64,000 nucleotides of DNA from an uncultured Ruminococcus sp. (GTDB taxonomy: Bacteria > Bacillota > Clostridia > Oscillospirales > Acutalibacteraceae): assembly GCA_902785355.1 (NCBI GenBank), contig CACZYF010000001.1, forward strand, positions 81,497-145,496. Direction: 5' to 3'. Of this stretch, positions 5,853 to 64,000 are shown piece by piece (within the stretch, counting starts at the first letter, position 1; each line of letters begins with the position of its first letter). Below the pieces are notes generated by a model, which worked only from the letters and a program-made list of their open reading frames with translations, ran no database searches and was not told the origin of the DNA. The translations under genes and the position numbers were made by a program.

Positions 5853-6776
5853 TTATCGGATCACCAGTCCCGTATCTTCGGGGAGACCCATACGGATATT
5901 CATGTTCTGGATCGCGGCGCCCGAAGCGCCCTTGCCGAGGTTATCGAAGCGCGAGATCAGGGTGATACGGTCGTCGCAGCCGAACGCGGCGACAGCCATA
6001 TCGTCACGGCCGCTGTAGGCGGCGGCGCTGATGAAGCCGTCCTCGGTACTGTCGTCGTAACGGATCAGGCCGCTCTTGTAATAATCTTTATACGCCGTTC
6101 TGATATCCTCCAGGGTGCCGTTCACATCCTCGCGCATAAGGCTCACGCTGACCTCCATACCACTGTAGTACGAGGCGACGATGGGGCTGAAAACCGGCGC
6201 TTTCTCAAGTCCGCAGAGCTTGACCATCTCGGGGAGGTGCTTGTGCGCCTGAGGGAGGGCGTAAACGCGGGGAGCGCTGAGCAGCGGGGAGCGGTCGGGG
6301 CTCTCATACTCGGCGATCATCTTCTTGCCGCCGCCGGAATAACCGGTCAGCGAGTAGCAGAAAAGGGCAATGTCGCTCCCGATGATTCCGAGCTCGACGA
6401 GCGGTCTGACCAGCGAGATGAAGCCGCTGGCGTGACAGCCGGGATTTGCGATACGGGTCGCGGAGCCGAGCTGTTCTCTCAGTCCGCTGAGCTCGGGCAT
6501 GCCGTAGGTCCAGCCCTCGGCGGTACGGTGAGCCGTCGAGGTGTCGATCACCACGGCGTTGGGGTTTTGGATCAGCGAAACCGCCTCCACCGCCGCCGCG
6601 TCGGGCAGGCACAAAAAGCTGATATCGCTGTTGTTGAGCATTTCGGCACGCGCCGAGATATCCTTACGGAGTTCATCGGGCAGAAGCATCAGCTCGATGT
6701 CCTTACGCTCGCTGAGGCGCTCACGGATCCTCAGGCCGGTCGTGCCGGCGCTGCCGTCTATAAAAACTTTTATCAT
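5853..6776 (-). CDS. argC: N-acetyl-gamma-glutamyl-phosphate reductase (short, type 2)
   Basis: ArgC reduces N-acetylglutamyl phosphate to the semialdehyde with NADPH. The N terminus MIKVFIDGSAGTTGLRIRER is the nucleotide-binding region and NPGCHASGFI holds the catalytic Cys. At 307 residues it matches the shorter type 2 ArgC class rather than the roughly 345-residue class. Its ATG overlaps the argH stop as ATGA, implying translational coupling. Confidence 0.95.
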   Translation of the reverse strand: MIKVFIDGSAGTTGLRIRERLSERKDIELMLLPDELRKDISARAEMLNNSDISFLCLPDAAAVEAVSLIQNPNAVVIDTSTAHRTAEGWTYGMPELSGLREQLGSATRIANPGCHASGFISLVRPLVELGIIGSDIALFCYSLTGYSGGGKKMIAEYESPDRSPLLSAPRVYALPQAHKHLPEMVKLCGLEKAPVFSPIVASYYSGMEVSVSLMREDVNGTLEDIRTAYKDYYKSGLIRYDDSTEDGFISAAAYSGRDDMAVAAFGCDDRITLISRFDNLGKGASGAAIQNMNIRMGLPEDTGLVIR

Positions 6777-8146
6777 TGCAATTTCTCTTTCACATATTTA
6801 ATTTGCTGCTCGATCGACTGCACGGAGGTGCCGCCGACGGAGTTGCGCTTATTGACGCAGGTGTACAGGTCGATATCATCGTACAGATCCTGCTCGAACA
6901 GGTCGGAATACTCCTTGTACTTCTCGAGCGGAAGGGTCTCCAGCACCTCGCCGTTCGCGATACAATAGGCGACGATGGAGCCCGAGATCTTATATGCCGA
7001 ACGGAAGGGCATGCCCTTCTTCGTGAGATAATCGGCAAGGTCGGTCGCGTTGATAAACCCGCGCTGAGCCGCCTTCTTCATGTTCTCGGTCTTGACCTTC
7101 ATGGTCGAGATCATGCCGACAAAGATCTGCAGGGACATATAGGCGGTATCGACCGCGTCGAACACGCCCTCCTTATCCTCCTGCATATCCTTGTTATATG
7201 CGAGGGGCAGACCCTTGAGGACGGTCAGAGCGCCCATCAGGTCGCCGTAGACACGTCCGGTCTTGCCGCGTACGAGCTCCGCCATATCGGAGTTCTTCTT
7301 CTGCGGCATGATGGAAGAGCCGGTAGTGTAAGCGTCGGAAAGCTCGACGAAGCCGAACTCCCAGCTCGACCAGAGGATGATCTCCTCCGACAGGCGGGAG
7401 AGGTGCATCATCAGGATGGAGAGATCGGACAGAAGCTCGATCACATAATCGCGGTCGGAAACGCCGTCGAGCGAGTTCATCGCGATATCGTCGAAGCCCA
7501 GCTGCTCCGCCTCAAAGTAACGGTCGGTATCGTAGGTGGTGCCCGCTAAGGCACAGCAGCCGATCGGCGAGATATTCATGCGGCGCTTGCAGTCCGCAAG
7601 GCGCTCGCGGTCACGCAGGAGCATCATGGCGTAGGCTAAGAGGTGATGACCGAACATGATCGGCTGGGCACGCTGCAGATGCGTATAGCCGGGCATGATC
7701 GCCTCTTTATAATTCTCAGCCTGTTCGGTCAGCGCGAGGATCAGGCGCTTTATCTCAGATGAGAGCTCGTCCACACGGTTCATCAGGTACATTCTGAGAT
7801 CGAGTGCAACCTGGTCGTTCCTCGATCTCGCGGTATGGAGCTTCTTGCCGACGTCGCCGACGCGGCGGGTCAGCTCCTCCTCCACGAACATGTGGATATC
7901 CTCGGCGTTCATATCGATCTCGAGCTTACCCGAGGTGATATCGTCGAGGATCTTCAACAGCTCGTCACACAGCGCGTCAGCCTCCCACCGCTCGATGATG
8001 CCCTGCTTCGCAAGCATCTGGGCATGCGCGATAGAGCCCGTGATATCCTCTTTATACATACGACTGTCAAAGCCGATGGAGCTGTTGAATTCGTCAGCCA
8101 GCTTGCTGGTGTCTCCGGCGGTACGTCCCGCCCACATTTTAGCCAT
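6773..8146 (-). CDS. argH: Argininosuccinate lyase
   Basis: ArgH splits argininosuccinate into arginine and fumarate. The 457-residue protein carries the fumarase/aspartase superfamily signature GSSIMPQKKNSD and the TARSRNDQVALD motif. The start MAKMWAGR follows AAAGGAAAG. It sits directly downstream of argG and overlaps argC by four bases. Confidence 0.97.
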   Translation of the reverse strand: MAKMWAGRTAGDTSKLADEFNSSIGFDSRMYKEDITGSIAHAQMLAKQGIIERWEADALCDELLKILDDITSGKLEIDMNAEDIHMFVEEELTRRVGDVGKKLHTARSRNDQVALDLRMYLMNRVDELSSEIKRLILALTEQAENYKEAIMPGYTHLQRAQPIMFGHHLLAYAMMLLRDRERLADCKRRMNISPIGCCALAGTTYDTDRYFEAEQLGFDDIAMNSLDGVSDRDYVIELLSDLSILMMHLSRLSEEIILWSSWEFGFVELSDAYTTGSSIMPQKKNSDMAELVRGKTGRVYGDLMGALTVLKGLPLAYNKDMQEDKEGVFDAVDTAYMSLQIFVGMISTMKVKTENMKKAAQRGFINATDLADYLTKKGMPFRSAYKISGSIVAYCIANGEVLETLPLEKYKEYSDLFEQDLYDDIDLYTCVNKRNSVGGTSVQSIEQQIKYVKEKLQ

Positions 8147-58577: not shown

Positions 58578-59015
58578 GCTGGGAACCCGGTCAGCCAATT
58601 CCGCCTTTTTATGCGTTTCATTTTACAGAAAACAACCTCAACAGCATAATAATATGTTAAGTATAAAACGCCGCTGATGTAGTCCAAAGCAGCTCTAAAA
58701 CGTCCGGATCTCAGCCGTGTCGCGTTTTTGTGAGAAAGTAGGGTAATATGACTTCCTTTTCGGATTTCAAGCAAAAAGTGCTGATTTAAAGTGCGATTTC
58801 AGCTTAGAAAGTCAGTGTTTAAGCCATTTATATAATAAGGCTGTTTGATAATTTCACTTGAAGCTAAACAAAAATGTTAGTCACAGTATCACCGTTTCTT
58901 TATACAAGAAAGCGCGCTCTGCGCGCATTTCGCATAGCCATCGCTCGTTGTTGCGTAGCAACAAACTGAGCGGGCATACAAATCTTTTTTACTTTATTAG
59001 AAATAAAGTAAAAAA
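58578..59015. other. Noncoding gap between TetR and macrodomain genes
   Basis: No gene is supported. It holds several hairpins: GCGCGCTCTGCGCGC near 58912-58926, a CGCTC..GAGCG dyad with inner TTGTTGC/GCAACAA near 58933-58963, and TTTTTTACTTTAT/AATAAAGTAAAAAA near 58985-59015. Confidence 0.5.
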
Positions 59016-59041: not shown

Positions 59042-59818
59042 TCAGCAATTCAACAAGTTGCGATAAATCATCAGATCCTCATCCTTGAACACATTGAAGA
59101 TGACCTTGATATCGCTGCTTGTTGTTTTTTTGTAGTCTTTCACAGTTGATATGGCGATCTCAGCCGCCTTATGCTGCGGGAATCCGAACACACCTGTGGA
59201 GATACAGCAGAACGCGATGCTTTTACAGCCGTTTTCTTCGGCAAGCTTCAAGCAGGAGAGGTAACAGCTTTTCAACAGCTCACAGTGCCGCTCATTCAAT
59301 CTGCCGCTGACGATCGGTCCCACGGTATGAATGACATATTTGCTCGGCAAATTGTAGCCGGGAGTTATCTTAGCCTGACCTGTAGGCTCCTCGTGCCCCT
59401 GCTCGCGCATGATCTCAAAGCACCGGTATCTCAGAGATAATCCGGCAGCGCTATGCAAGCAGTTGTCGATGCAGGAATGTAAGATCCTGAAGCAGCCCAA
59501 AAGCTGGGCGTTGGCGGCGTTCACCACCGCGTCGCAGGAGAGCGTTGTGATGTTGCCCTGCCATAAATAGAGGTCTTTTTCAACAGGGGTGAGGTCAGAT
59601 ATTTTTGTGATACCCTTTGCTTCGTTTTCAGCTCTGAGATATTCGCTTTCAATTCGTAGATATTCCTCGCTGATAGGCTTCGGCATCCAAATATTCATCA
59701 ATCCACGAAGCAGATCCTTCTGCCCCTGCTCATCATTCGGGATTCTGTAATGGCTGAGTTGGGAACGATCCTTTTGCAGTTCTTTGATCAACCAGATACG
59801 TTGTTCTTCATGCGTCAT
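59042..59818 (-). CDS. Zinc-type macrodomain protein-ADP-ribose hydrolase
   Basis: The 258-residue protein has a helical N-terminal part (about 1-85) and a macrodomain: LYLWQGNITTLSCDAVVNAA, NAQLLGCFRILHSCIDNCLH, GHEEPTGQAKITPGYNLPSK, YVIHTVGPIVSG and AFCCISTGVFGFPQHKAAEI. The GCF..HSCIDNC Cys/His cluster is the zinc site of the SirTM-linked macrodomain class, which removes ADP-ribose placed by the sirtuin. Unusually it is 3.1 kb away from the sirtuin gene. The family GCW(x)PCH motif reads GCFRILH, a Pro/Cys change beside the zinc site. Confidence 0.92.
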   Translation of the reverse strand: MTHEEQRIWLIKELQKDRSQLSHYRIPNDEQGQKDLLRGLMNIWMPKPISEEYLRIESEYLRAENEAKGITKISDLTPVEKDLYLWQGNITTLSCDAVVNAANAQLLGCFRILHSCIDNCLHSAAGLSLRYRCFEIMREQGHEEPTGQAKITPGYNLPSKYVIHTVGPIVSGRLNERHCELLKSCYLSCLKLAEENGCKSIAFCCISTGVFGFPQHKAAEIAISTVKDYKKTTSSDIKVIFNVFKDEDLMIYRNLLNC

Positions 59819-60005
59819 ACAGCTTGGCGAAGTGTTCCCTGTCGGGGATCACACGCCGCGTTCATTTGCTCTCTCGTCATACCGTGCGCCTCACGGTAAT
59901 GCCGAAGAATATGGCAATAATCCTTTTGCCGTAGTAACGGATTGAAAGTATATATTAAATGTATCAGGCACTTGCCTTGAATGATGTGATAGGTTTGTGT
60001 GTGAT
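59819..60005. other. Noncoding or degraded stretch
   Basis: No intact gene. On the minus strand about 40 codons just before the macrodomain gene read LRQKDYCHILRHYREAHGMT then REQMNAACDPRQ, somewhat like the start of an HTH domain but without start signal or length. It is reported as a possible relic only. Confidence 0.35.
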
Positions 60006-60149
<144 letters not shown>

Positions 60150-60226
60150 TTAAAGATAATATGAGCAGTTTAACTGGTATTCTGATTTGAACTTCAAAAT
60201 CATTATTCTATATTTAAACGTATAGT

Positions 60227-60280
60227 ATTCTTGATATATATCAAGAATATCTTGACTTTTAAACATCTTGTGGGTATTAT
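60227..60280 (+). promoter_or_regulatory. Operator-promoter of the methyltransferase arm
   Basis: A perfect 22-base palindrome (60227-60248; arms ATTCTTGATAT and ATATCAAGAAT) directly precedes TTGACT (60252-60257), a 17-base spacer and TATTAT (60275-60280). A third half site TCTTGA overlaps the -35, giving TCAAGA-ATA-TCTTGA. The arrangement suggests cooperative repression by the HTH protein encoded just downstream. Confidence 0.85.
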
Positions 60281-60304
60281 ATGAAAGGATGGAGGCTTAT
60301 TATA

Positions 60305-60568
60305 ATGAATGAAAAAGCTCTTTTAAGCTATGCTAAATTATGGAAATTAATGATTGATAAAAACATTAATAAAACACAATTAAAAGAAATGGCTAATATA
60401 AGCACAAACGCTGTTGCAAAAATGAGCAAAAATGAACCTGTTTCTTTAGATACCTTGTCAAAAATTTGTTTTGTATTGGAATGTGGAATCGGCGATGTGA
60501 TTGAAATTACATTCGATAAATACAATGATTCTGGAGGAAATTATGATGATAACGAAGAAGTACTTTGA
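60305..60568 (+). CDS. Cro/CI-type HTH regulator of the methyltransferase arm
   Basis: The 87-residue protein has an HTH of the type AKLWKLMIDKNINKTQLKEM and ANISTNAVAKMSKNEPVSLD, ending LECGIGDVIEI, followed by an acidic tail. I start at ATG 60305 after GGAGG; an earlier ATG abuts the -10 and is unlikely. It leads an AT-rich operon with a 71-residue protein and a DNA methyltransferase, so it probably controls them. Composition differs strongly from the host genes to the left. Confidence 0.85.
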   Translation: MNEKALLSYAKLWKLMIDKNINKTQLKEMANISTNAVAKMSKNEPVSLDTLSKICFVLECGIGDVIEITFDKYNDSGGNYDDNEEVL

Positions 60569-60758
60569 TGTTCATATGCATATAGATAATGATAGTAAAG
60601 AAGGGTACTCCATTTTTTTAATGGCTGACTCTATAAAACAAGCACTCGATATTATACGAAGAGAAGCTTTGTATGAAGACGAAAAAGATTTAAACAACAT
60701 TGATTATATAGGTGAAATCACAGAACAAGAATTCAAATTATCGAATATGAGGAAATAA
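60543..60758 (+). CDS. Unrecognised small protein between regulator and methyltransferase
   Basis: The 71-residue protein starts at ATG 60543 with GGAGG five bases upstream and overlaps the HTH gene by 26 bases. It is acidic, with KKYFDVHMHIDNDSKEGYSI, a short helix SIKQALDIIRREALYE and DYIGEITEQEFKL. No known family is recognised. The tight overlap and two-base gap to the methyltransferase make it part of that operon. Confidence 0.75.
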   Translation: MMITKKYFDVHMHIDNDSKEGYSIFLMADSIKQALDIIRREALYEDEKDLNNIDYIGEITEQEFKLSNMRK

Positions 60759-60760
60759 TA

Positions 60761-62281
60761 ATGGAAAAAGAGATAGAATATACATTAACGACAGACAATA
60801 ACCATATTAAAGAATATGGTCAATACTTTACAAATTTTGACGTAGCAAAATTTATGGCTACGTGGGTTTGCACAGCTGCAGGAAGCCTTTTAGATCCTGC
60901 AGCCGGCAATAGTGTATTTCTCAAATACGCTAAAGAATCAAATCCTAATTGTACTTTAATTGGTTATGAAATCGACCCGAACATTCTTGGTTTTTTTGGA
61001 AATCCAACAAATGCTTCGCTCAAAAACGAAGATTACCTAATGACTGGTTGGGAAGATAAATACGACGCTATAATATGTAACCCCCCCTATAACCGTTTTC
61101 AGGCAGTTGCAAACAGAAATGAAATAATAAGAGAAATTGAGAAACACACTGGAATCAAATATAGCAGTTATACAAATCTCTATATTCTTTTCCTTTTGAA
61201 AAGCCTTCATCAATTATCAGACAAAGGAAAACTCGCTTATATAGTACCAACAGAATTTTTAAATTCCAAATATGGCACACCTATAAAGGAAAAACTTGTT
61301 AACGAAAAACTATTACGTGCCATTATAAATTTCAAAAACGACCAAGAAATGTTTTTTAATTCAACAACCACTTGTTGCATATTATTAATTGATAAAGAAG
61401 AAAAAGATGGCGTACAATTCTATAATTTAGAATGCATTTCCCAATTATTTGAGATAAATCTAAACAGCGCCAATGGATATCATCTTGTCCTTTATAAAAA
61501 TCTATCTCCCGAAAAAAAATGGCGAGAATATATCCAGCACGAACAAGCAATAGTGTATTGCAATTTAAAAGAGATTTCAGAGTTTTGCAATATATCTAGA
61601 GGAATCGCCACCGGTGCTAATGAGTTTTTCTGTTTATCTAAATCTAAAATAGAAAAAAACGAACTACCATATACCAATATTGATGAGTGTATATGTAGGT
61701 CTGCCGATGTCAAGAACATAATCTTCACTCACGATGATTTTATTAAATTGGCCGACGCTGACAAAACTGTTTTTTTACTTGATATAAAAGACATAAACAG
61801 CATCACAACAAAGAAATATATTACAAACGGTGAGGAAAAGGAAATCAATAAAAAATATCTATTATCCCGTAGGAAGCCCTGGTATTCTATGGAACAAAAA
61901 CCAATTGCACCAATTTGGGTTTCTTCTGCATGCAGAGATAAGATAAAATTCATAAGAAACATTGCAGGAGTAAAATCTTTAACAACATTCCATTCTATTT
62001 TTATTAATAAAAATTACGAAGCTGATATTGACATCATTTTTTGCTATTTTTTGACTCCTATCGCACAAGAGATAATACGTCAAAACAGGAAAGAATTAGG
62101 TAATGGTTTAGAAAAATTCCAACCAAATGATTTAAAAACGGCAAAAATGCTTGATATTACAATAATATCCGATGAAGATAAGCAAGAAATAATCAATATT
62201 TATCATATGATGATAGATAAACCAAATGATTCATACATAGAATCATTAAATGATATTTTTGAAAAATATTTATGTGCATAA
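60761..62281 (+). CDS. N6-adenine DNA methyltransferase (TaqI/Eco57I-like class)
   Basis: The 506-residue protein has motif X KEYGQYFTNFDVAKFMATWV, motif I LLDPAAGNSVFL, acidic GYEIDPN and catalytic motif IV ICNPPYNRF, then a long C-terminal region (about 270-500) fitting a TaqI-like target recognition domain. It methylates adenine within a recognition site, which cannot be read from sequence. It is convergent with the putative endonuclease gene. Confidence 0.92.
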   Translation: MEKEIEYTLTTDNNHIKEYGQYFTNFDVAKFMATWVCTAAGSLLDPAAGNSVFLKYAKESNPNCTLIGYEIDPNILGFFGNPTNASLKNEDYLMTGWEDKYDAIICNPPYNRFQAVANRNEIIREIEKHTGIKYSSYTNLYILFLLKSLHQLSDKGKLAYIVPTEFLNSKYGTPIKEKLVNEKLLRAIINFKNDQEMFFNSTTTCCILLIDKEEKDGVQFYNLECISQLFEINLNSANGYHLVLYKNLSPEKKWREYIQHEQAIVYCNLKEISEFCNISRGIATGANEFFCLSKSKIEKNELPYTNIDECICRSADVKNIIFTHDDFIKLADADKTVFLLDIKDINSITTKKYITNGEEKEINKKYLLSRRKPWYSMEQKPIAPIWVSSACRDKIKFIRNIAGVKSLTTFHSIFINKNYEADIDIIFCYFLTPIAQEIIRQNRKELGNGLEKFQPNDLKTAKMLDITIISDEDKQEIINIYHMMIDKPNDSYIESLNDIFEKYLCA

Positions 62282-62320
62282 TTAATAAGATAAAAGCCAT
62301 CAACGTAAAAGATGGCTTTT

Positions 62321-62620
62321 TTACTGTACAATATATTCCTTTAAAGAAATATCCTGATCCGAGGGAACTTTTTTTACAAGAATAAGACTTTCCTCTGGAA
62401 TAATAGCTTTTATCTTTTTTTGCACTTGCCCTGTTTGCAACGAGTATCGAGTCACATTAAAAATATATTTTGAATCTAGTCGTTCTAGAATTGGTGTATT
62501 ATAATGAATCAGCTGATTACCCACAATTCTTAAAGTGCCCGGATTCTTAGGAGTACCTGAAATTGCATCCGTTTCTCCATCAAGGAACATTTCTATCAAT
62601 TGTTGAAATGTAATAGTCAT
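62321..62620 (-). CDS. Unrecognised small protein of the restriction arm
   Basis: The 99-residue protein starts MTITFQQLIEMFLDGETDAI and contains SGTPKNPGTLRIVGNQLIHY and FNVTRYSLQTGQVQKKIKAI. It begins five bases after the putative endonuclease gene, so it is the last gene of that operon. The region GNQLIHYNTPILER recurs in small proteins near restriction systems in my memory, but I cannot name a family. It may be an inhibitor or accessory factor; this is speculation. Confidence 0.7.
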   Translation of the reverse strand: MTITFQQLIEMFLDGETDAISGTPKNPGTLRIVGNQLIHYNTPILERLDSKYIFNVTRYSLQTGQVQKKIKAIIPEESLILVKKVPSDQDISLKEYIVQ

Positions 62621-62624
62621 TAGA

Positions 62625-63272
62625 TCACCCCCTACTTTTATTTTTTTTCTTAACTAACGCTATTTCATTTGCTTCTTTTAAAACAATTAAAAATTCCTGC
62701 GGCGTTCTTTTAACAGCATTAGATAATTCTTTGTATTGCGATGATTGCAGATTACCATTATTACTTGGATTAACATATACATCAGGAATCCATGCAGTAG
62801 GAAAAACAATGCATTTTTCTAAACCAATTGTCATATTAGGTTTAAAACTAATTACAAAAGTGGTAACGTATAGATTTGCGTTCGGTTCTGAATTATAGAA
62901 ATCAATTAATCCTACCGCCTTTGAAATATCATCCTTATTTGTACGTCCACCCTTTACAGATGATTTTATATTTACATATGACGTTTTATTCCCATCATAT
63001 TGAAATTTAAAATCATATACTCCAACTTCCGAATCCGCTGGAGCAACGCTATCAAATCCCAACGATTTTACTTGTGATTCAAGACCTTGACTTATTACTT
63101 CTTCTACTATTCGCCATACCGTTCTTCCTTTTGCCGCTTTTCTCCACCCATACGGCATAATTTTATTATTCGCAATCGGAATATCCCCTATATTTTTAAT
63201 AAGCTGGTTTAGCTTATCTTCTAGAAACTTTCTTTCTGTTTCAACTGCTAAATACTTTTGTTCGTTTGACAT
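62625..63272 (-). CDS. Putative type II restriction endonuclease (PD-(D/E)xK-like)
   Basis: The 215-residue protein has no strong overall similarity I can name, but GVYDFKFQYDGNKTSYVNIK followed by SSVKGG fits a PD-(D/E)xK core: an Asp in one strand and a xIK lysine in the next after a hairpin. Its place between a controller gene and an opposing adenine methyltransferase is that of a type II endonuclease. Recognition sequence unknown. Confidence 0.75.
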   Translation of the reverse strand: MSNEQKYLAVETERKFLEDKLNQLIKNIGDIPIANNKIMPYGWRKAAKGRTVWRIVEEVISQGLESQVKSLGFDSVAPADSEVGVYDFKFQYDGNKTSYVNIKSSVKGGRTNKDDISKAVGLIDFYNSEPNANLYVTTFVISFKPNMTIGLEKCIVFPTAWIPDVYVNPSNNGNLQSSQYKELSNAVKRTPQEFLIVLKEANEIALVKKKNKSRG

Positions 63273-63289
63273 AGTAATTCCACCTATTG

Positions 63290-63499
63290 TTAATCTATAC
63301 CCTCAAACAGTTCACTTAAACTTACTTCTAAGCCATCTGCTATCTTTTTAATATTATTAATAGAAATATTTCGTTTGCCAGCTTCAACAGATGCAAAATA
63401 AGTCCTGTCCATGTTAATATGAAGTGCAAATTTCTCTTGACTTAACCCTTTTTGTTTCCTTAACACCTGAATTCGATTTCCGAGTTTCCTTGTAACCAT
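63290..63499 (-). CDS. Controller (C) protein of the restriction arm
   Basis: The 69-residue protein is a single XRE HTH: LGNRIQVLRKQKGLSQEKFA, LHINMDRTYFASVEAGKRNI, SINNIKKIADGL, ending LSELFEGID. The MDRTYFASVEAGKRN helix matches C proteins of type II systems such as C.AhdI/C.Esp1396I. GGAGG is seven bases before the ATG. C proteins delay endonuclease expression until methylation is complete; operators are seen upstream. Confidence 0.9.
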   Translation of the reverse strand: MVTRKLGNRIQVLRKQKGLSQEKFALHINMDRTYFASVEAGKRNISINNIKKIADGLEVSLSELFEGID

Positions 63500-63520
63500 A
63501 CCTCAACCTCCACTCTGTAA

Positions 63521-63560
63521 TAATATAAGCACACGGACTTTATAACAACGGGATATAAGT
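63521..63560 (-). promoter_or_regulatory. C-box operators upstream of the controller gene
   Basis: Minus-strand reading gives ACTTATATCCCGTTGTTATA then AAGTCCGTGTGCTTATATTA. GTCCGTGTG flanked by TTATA words closely resembles the C-box of Esp1396I-type controller systems, and two dyads (ACTTATA with TATAAAGT; ATAAAGT with GCTTATA) fit the usual left and right operator pair. Confidence 0.7.
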
Positions 63561-63584
63561 AACAATGCGAATTTAAAAAACAAA

Positions 63585-63610
63585 AGATTCCATAAATGCA
63601 TATGGAATCT
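63585..63610 (-). terminator. Rho-independent terminator right of the controller region
   Basis: AGATTCCATA and TATGGAATCT form a perfect 10-bp stem with a 6-base loop; TTTGTTTTTT follows on the minus strand. No gene ending here can be identified; it may isolate the controller promoter from read-through. Confidence 0.75.
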
Positions 63611-63939
63611 TCTGAAACATTATATATTCGTTTTTATGAACGTGTTCTCTTATTTGGTCGTAAATTGGTTGTAAGTTTCGACATTACCTACTTGTAACTG
63701 CTGATATTGCGCCATTCCTTACGATCAGGATTTCATTGTCGGGACTTCCGATACATCATGCGAAAAACCGTTCATAACCATCCATAGCCCTTTATTTAAG
63801 CCATTTTCGATTTTGCCACTTGAATATTAAAGTAAAGGGAGTTATTAGGGAGATGTTATCTCCCTGAAAAAACAAAAAGACCTTGATGAAAACGAATCCA
63901 CCAAGGTCAAATTCATTAAATATGCGTCAGTACAAGTTG
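63611..63939. other. Noncoding stretch at right end
   Basis: No credible gene. A second terminator lies at 63879-63908 (GACCTTG with CAAGGTC, then TTTTTGTTTTTT on the minus strand), and a small hairpin GGGAGATGTTATCTCCC at 63848-63864. A 33-codon minus-strand open stretch (63707-63808 approximately) has no start signal. Confidence 0.6.
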
Positions 63940-64000
63940 CTAAATACATTTGAGAATAGGATCGATATATTTTTTATCAGTCCAATCACACTTGTTTTCT
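63940..64000 (-). CDS. Last codons of an unidentified minus-strand gene
   Basis: The edge reads ENKCDWTDKKYIDPILKCI followed by a TAG stop at 63940-63942, and a terminator follows 31 bases later. The sequence is too short to name. The stop-plus-terminator layout is the only support. Confidence 0.35.
   Translation of the reverse strand, partial: ENKCDWTDKKYIDPILKCI

Follow-up and report, generated by a model that had tools for sequence, protein, structure and literature searches.

A convergent restriction-modification island in an uncultured Ruminococcus with a putative regulator and operator for each arm

How can a restriction-modification (R-M) system establish itself in a naive cell and leave that cell alive? 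To our knowledge, the answers so far come mainly from single-regulator designs, and the locus described here raises the question of whether two may divide the task between them. It lies in a 64,000-nucleotide stretch of DNA from an uncultured Ruminococcus sp. (the window; positions 81497-145496 of the 145496-base contig CACZYF010000001.1, in a genome of 2.23 Mb and 73 contigs). Read from its sequence, the locus is an AT-rich island of 3.4 kb made of two convergent operons. The plus-strand operon encodes, in order, an HTH_26 helix-turn-helix (HTH) regulator, a 71-aa protein (p71) and an N6-adenine DNA methyltransferase (M), and the minus-strand operon a controller (C) protein, a 215-aa protein that is a candidate restriction endonuclease (R) and a 99-aa protein (p99). 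An earlier note made from the sequence alone had described this convergent six-gene layout, and all six genes are present as described, with small corrections only. On sequence grounds, the island is probably a type II R-M system of the convergent, Esp1396I-like C-R/M layout with its arms under separate regulators. The M-arm regulator is ordinary for this bacterial family; what is new is the combination of regulators and the endonuclease candidate.

One close relative allows the island to be compared with a second copy. This locus, L002 (contig CADBNZ010000018.1, 3278 bases, labelled uncultured proteobacterium), was the one among 20 pattern-matched stretches to encode a relative, and it has the same layout of HTH_26 regulator, p71, methyltransferase, 215-aa protein and C protein, with recognisable operators. 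Identities between the two copies are 74% for the HTH_26 regulator, 75% for p71, 81% for the methyltransferase, 93% for the 215-aa protein and 90% for the C protein. The ratios of nonsynonymous to synonymous substitution rates (dN/dS) of 0.18 for the HTH_26 regulator, 0.10 for the methyltransferase, 0.03 for the 215-aa protein (0.031, the lowest of the four computable genes) and 0.07 for the C protein indicate that both arms are under purifying selection. The C-R arm is the better conserved of the two, with dN at 0.04-0.07 against 0.10-0.16 in the HTH-p71-M arm and dS about 0.8-1.3 where computable.

The two arms are headed by regulators of different kinds. The M-arm regulator (VanU-like, 87 aa, 60305-60568, plus strand) belongs to a family distinct from C proteins, with a Pfam HTH_26 match at 5.7e-19; its start is the ATG at 60305, not 60281, and most searches used 60308-60565, with the first methionine left out. 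Its closest solved relative is PDB 3tyr (2.9e-14), which we take to be VanU, and its best NCBIfam model is VanU (NF000090) at 64.6 bits; as this is far under the cut-off of 150, the protein is kin to VanU rather than VanU itself. The C protein (69 aa, 63290-63499, minus strand) matches the PADLOC Control_protein model at 6.1e-23 and contains an SQE stretch, and its best solved relatives in the PDB are C.AhdI (9.1e-12), C.BclI (2.7e-11) and the R-M controller 3clc (2.1e-9), which is C.Esp1396I (PMC4041747; this and the other papers cited are used from the parts available to us). Pattern and matrix scans placed the C-boxes and the C promoter (TTGTTA-17-TATTAT, 63548-63520, 9 of 12 consensus matches) at 63520-63561 on the minus strand. 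The matrix was built from four sites, namely those of L002, L082, L083 and the window, whose own site was included; the left box, a 22-bp operator at 63540-63561, scored 23.3 bits and the next best site of the window 6.2, which bears out the C-boxes proposed earlier at about this position. Both the C protein and its boxes are of the canonical kind. The same left box is present at L002, L082 and L083, the comparison covering these three loci and the window, with the other eight C loci outside it.

The M arm has a putative operator of its own. A perfect palindrome, TATTCTTGATATATATCAAGAATA, lies at 60226-60249; it had been read as 22 bp at 60227-60248, and it is indeed perfect, but 24 bp long. 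No ungapped perfect palindrome in the 64-kb window is longer, and its length is beyond chance: when the island was simulated 500 times with a first-order Markov model, a palindrome of at least 24 bp never arose and one of at least 22 bp arose three times. TCTTGA/TCAAGA half-sites stand at 60229 (60229-60234), 60241 (60241-60246) and 60250, out of six in all within 60151-64000, and three such half-sites inside 30 bp occurred in none of 1000 simulations. The third (60250-60255, plus strand) begins 21 bp from the first and overlaps the -35 box of the putative M-arm promoter (TTGACT-17-TATTAT, 60252-60280, plus strand, 10 of 12 consensus matches). This arrangement, TCTTGA twice, 21 bp apart, with the second reaching into the -35 box, is kept in both the window and L002.

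Pattern and matrix scans found neither arm's operator at the other arm. The C promoter has no TCTTGA half-site by pattern scan, and the best score of the C-box matrix on the M promoter, -4.6 bits, is no better than that of random 200-bp stretches (median -4.5). The claim of one regulator with a distinct operator for each arm therefore holds computationally, with no cross-match and both pairs kept in L002. These results bear on a simpler explanation, a plain Esp1396I-like system whose M promoter holds a weak, divergent C site, so that the C protein governs both arms and the HTH_26 protein is a passenger or fine-tuner. Such a system would share the convergent layout, and C.Esp1396I is described as also repressing M at an M-promoter site (PMC4041747); however, the scan of the M promoter showed no C-box-like site, and the window and L002 both keep the HTH_26 gene beside TCTTGA half-sites, so we regard this explanation as quite improbable.

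Each half of the design was then set against other genomes. HTH_26 relatives at E of at most 1e-8 are present in 40 of 100 genomes of the family, the host's own included. The search gave 59 matches including that of the window. Taking the best match of each genome in turn yielded a further 29 loci, of which 28 were scanned, L042 being left out for an unclear open frame. Pfam tables per protein were used for 21 of the 28 and a tally for the other seven, the R-M counts being fully explained by the 13 loci named here. At these 13 loci (L025, L027, L028, L029, L032, L034, L035, L036, L037, L038, L039, L044 and L046) the next long gene or fused partner carries an R-M Pfam domain. An R-M neighbour is found at six of the eight scanned loci with at least 49% identity, the misses being L026 (no Pfam match) and L030 (a TetR gene). 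In L025 the HTH_26 relative (61% identical) is fused to a C5 methyltransferase and followed by a PADLOC REase_II gene (9.2e-16), in L034 a 43% identical relative is fused to an N6 methyltransferase, and in L044 an HsdM gene lies 250 nt downstream of the HTH, past a 50-aa open reading frame (ORF). Conversely, an HTH of the HTH_26 kind stands near the methyltransferase at four of eight loci found by methyltransferase search.

Relatives of the C protein were found at 1e-10 in 11 of 398 genomes of the phylum, own included. None of the ten other C loci (7-14 kb) contains an HTH_26 relative at E 0.05, and BLASTP with the C protein on eight HTH_26 R-M loci (11-15 kb) found no convincing partner, the weak matches at L063 (30%, E 2e-5) and L069 (25%, E 0.002) being of a general HTH kind. 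Thus the window and L002 are the only loci seen to combine an HTH_26 M arm with a C-R arm. The earlier note had set the HTH gene heading each arm against the single C protein of most C-controlled type II systems; at the head of R-M genes the M-arm HTH is common in this bacterial family (13 of 28 loci), and it is its pairing with a C-R arm that is unusual. The idea of two independent switches gains from the separate operators and their co-inheritance in L002 and is weakened by how common the M-arm HTH type is in the bacterial family. The C-R/M layout itself recurs: L083 and L090 are convergent, with restriction endonucleases (REases) of the HindIII type (4.5e-37) and MjaI type (2.1e-59), respectively, and the C-box of L083 is the same as that of the window. 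L082 probably shares this layout, with a 241-aa gene of no assigned family behind C, and both L082 and L083 have a small gene of no assigned family ahead of M. By eye, the M arm of L082 (minus strand, 6739-6954 and 6990-7140) opens with a 72-aa gene preceded by TTAGACT-like repeats, and L082 is possibly another two-regulator design.

The enzymes of the island differ in how readily they can be classified. The methyltransferase (506 aa, 60761-62281, plus strand) is an N6-adenine enzyme of the Eco57I/TaqI type, a class that we take to be gamma, with Pfam domains N6_Mtase and Eco57I (69.8 and 67 bits; cut-offs 20.4 and 25.3) and a C-terminal M_Eco57I_C domain, a PADLOC MTase_II match at 1.7e-111, M.TaqI among its solved relatives in the PDB, and an NPPY motif in its translation. 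All its relatives in plasmids and phages are under 60% identity, the best among the matches listed being at about 25%, and none was found in viral contigs. Between the convergent arms lies a hairpin with an A-run and a T-run (62292-62320), read by eye and likely a terminator; it is absent from the terminator scan because its loop of 9 nt exceeds the scan maximum of 8 nt.

The 215-aa protein (62625-63272, minus strand) is a putative restriction endonuclease, a candidacy that follows from its place 17 nt behind the C gene, its purifying selection and a marginal match to Pfam HSDR_N (E 0.07; 13.4 bits, the cut-off being 25.1). This match spans residues 84-142 and covers D87 and N101-I-K103, which may be read as a variant of the PD-(D/E)xK motif. 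No relatives were found in plasmids and phages by tblastn or in viral contigs. In 398 phylum genomes the search gave its own copy and one weak match interrupted by stops, and in 200 family genomes its own copy and one weak match (G050); the latter was rejected as 42-43 residues inside a 2686-aa protein that by eye resembles YD/RHS-repeat proteins. The third gene of this arm, p99 (99 aa, 62321-62620, minus strand), starts 4 nt past the upstream stop with a Shine-Dalgarno-like stretch, AGGGGGTGATC, and is seen in the window copy only: L002 has no similar ORF, and its shorter inter-arm gap does not align with p99. Pfam, NCBIfam and PADLOC gave p99 no family above cut-off, viral contigs and 200 family genomes gave no relatives, and a resemblance to DUF8033 found no support in the Pfam search. 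As it is missing from L002 and has no relative in the 200 family genomes, p99 looks like an add-on, and it may have been a later addition in the window copy or have been lost in L002.

The two small proteins had been proposed as added control parts, and here they part company, p99 being absent from L002 and lacking a relative in the family genomes, whereas p71 (60543-60758, plus strand, sharing 26 nt with the HTH gene) is a genuine and conserved gene, kept in L002 with its differences concentrated at codon position 3 (32 of 54 base differences, with synonymous sites saturated). Beyond the HTH gene, both alternative frames of the p71 region contain stops in the window and in L002. The profile libraries (Pfam, NCBIfam and PADLOC) gave p71 no family above cut-off, viral contigs gave no match, and 200 family genomes gave its own copy and six matches at E 0.009-0.03 that we judged to be chance. 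DpnD-PcfM (PF14207), considered as a family for p71, was dropped after two profile searches without a match at E 10, although HMMER filters may drop weak matches. AlphaFold 2 (AF2) predicts a beta-beta-alpha-alpha-beta-alpha fold with a mean predicted local distance difference test (pLDDT) of 75, which bears a weak likeness to ribosomal LX and to YkzG, a protein that interacts with RNA polymerase. No PDB entry matched at E 0.001; ribosomal LX was best at E 0.03, followed at rank 10 by YkzG (4njc, E 0.3) and at rank 19 by 7ckq chain H (E 0.77), presumably epsilon, and unrelated folds score similarly. Two uncharacterised phage proteins matched the fold at E <0.001 and are leads only. We take p71 to be a conserved companion of the M arm and suggest, weakly, that it might modulate the regulator or transcription.

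Taken as two circuits, the arms could work as follows. On entry into a new cell, the near-consensus M promoter would be free, so that the HTH_26 regulator, p71 and the methyltransferase would be made at once, and the weaker C promoter would wait for C protein. C protein would first activate both C and R from the left box and then, acting through the right box, repress them, as described for C proteins. The rising HTH_26 regulator would bind the TCTTGA half-sites reaching into its own -35 box and throttle the M arm; repression is favoured here because a half-site kept in both copies overlaps the -35 box. With a circuit for each arm, the delay of cutting and the ceiling of methylation would be set independently, and the two arms may be timed in this way. 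It is tempting to go further and see in the island a detached, SsoII-like methyltransferase autoregulator joined to a C-controlled endonuclease of an unnamed family, with p71 modulating the M switch and with protection and cutting timed independently; we offer this fuller design tentatively, as possible rather than probable.

Both control styles have precedents in the sources available to us. C proteins activate at low level and repress at high level (PMC4041747, PMC4824078), and Esp1396I and Csp231I resemble the island in having a C-R operon convergent with M and a C protein that acts at a left and a right operator (PMC4041747, PMC4824078), Csp231I also in having a putative terminator between the arms (PMC4824078). 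In both, as far as these parts describe them, the C protein is the sole regulator, which in Esp1396I also represses M, whereas the M arm of the island is headed by an HTH_26 gene unrelated to C, and the scan for C-boxes found none in that arm's promoter. Enzymes of the M.SsoII type repress their own gene through an N-terminal HTH bound at an M-promoter operator (PMC3874152, PMC6100179), and the reference list of PMC3874152 adds EcoRII, Ecl18kI and ScrFI as autoregulated methyltransferases. The likeness to the island, an HTH at an M-promoter operator, is one of arrangement. Relatives of the island's HTH are fused to a methyltransferase in L025 and L034; the island itself differs in that its HTH gene stands alone, set apart from M by p71, that M is an N6-adenine enzyme, and that a C protein is dedicated to R. 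RptR of type I R-M islands is likewise a small regulator placed first in an R-M operon, acting on repeated short sites at its own promoter (PMC12255303), again a likeness of arrangement; RptR differs in binding TAGCTA repeats over the -10 box and in being associated with type I systems (PMC12255303). No two-regulator type II precedent was recognised from titles and abstracts, most subscription papers being outside this scope.

Several observations weigh against two separately controlled arms with a C-controlled endonuclease. Promoter-like sites in the region number 20 against 22.0 expected in shuffles, and because they are no commoner than in shuffles the M promoter is credited by its position, not by its score. 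The palindrome is imperfect in L002, where its left arm and part of its right arm remain, L002 is the single close relative found, and the upstream regions of HTH_26 relatives, on inspection, show no obvious common operator. A divergent C site at the M promoter, where Esp1396I has a C site, could evade the scan. The 215-aa protein has no family match above cut-off in Pfam, NCBIfam and PADLOC, and its AF2 model, at a pLDDT of 38, makes its fold search, which gave no PDB match at E 0.001, meaningless. Finally, the palindrome is centred some 49 bp ahead of the inferred start, a position that fits an activator too.

This last point leads to an alternative in which the HTH_26 protein activates the M arm from just upstream of the -35 box and produces a self-amplifying burst of methylation. 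The palindrome at 60226-60249 does lie upstream of the -35 box (60252), but of the two half-sites common to the window and L002 one overlaps that box, the M promoter is already near consensus, and the HTH-carrying methyltransferases reviewed in PMC3874152, in the part available, repress their own gene; activation is thus rather unlikely. The failed structure model and missing family match of the 215-aa protein could also mean that the island does not restrict at all, the methyltransferase being an orphan and the C-215-99 arm another type of module. We consider this highly improbable, as C-protein relatives adjoin REase genes in L083, which has the same box, and in L090, which stood outside the left-box comparison, the convergent pairing is kept in L002, and dN/dS is lower for the 215-aa protein than for the other three genes where it was computable.

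We infer that the host lineage acquired the island from elsewhere. GC content falls from 45-50% at 56-60 kb to 30-34% at 60-64 kb, with the drop from about 60130, and the left edge at 60130-60131 is where host sequence, a cut second macro-domain gene, stops. In the same-genus genome G810, the one genome on which this comparison rests, homology ends at window position 60130, inside a macro-domain-like ORF (138 aa) that continues in G810, and the similarity of the cut fragment to the adjoining macro gene likewise stops at 60130. The methyltransferase was not found at 1e-20 in five same-genus genomes. The right edge lies outside the window, since the window ends with the contig. Beside the island are two adjoining macro-domain (ADP-ribose hydrolase) genes on the minus strand (59042-59818 and 59997-60146), the second a fragment cut at the island edge and 70% identical to the first over 110 nt. 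Further left, a repeat of about 95 bp (about 58904-58997) recurs several times in the host genome and many times elsewhere in the genus, from a search that scored at most 15 candidates per genome, and looks like a dispersed non-coding repeat family. An Rfam search gave no match. To the right of the C promoter stand two terminator-like hairpins on the minus strand (63581-63614 and 63879-63908), in a region whose scan found five such sites against 1.8 expected, and they suggest genes past the contig end transcribed toward the island.

Judged from the sequence, two regulators with two switches seem to be an uncommon combination of two known control styles. If this is true, the share of each circuit in bringing an R-M system into a naive cell could be told apart by deleting the regulators singly, and in its 215-aa protein the island provides a candidate endonuclease that has no recognised relatives.

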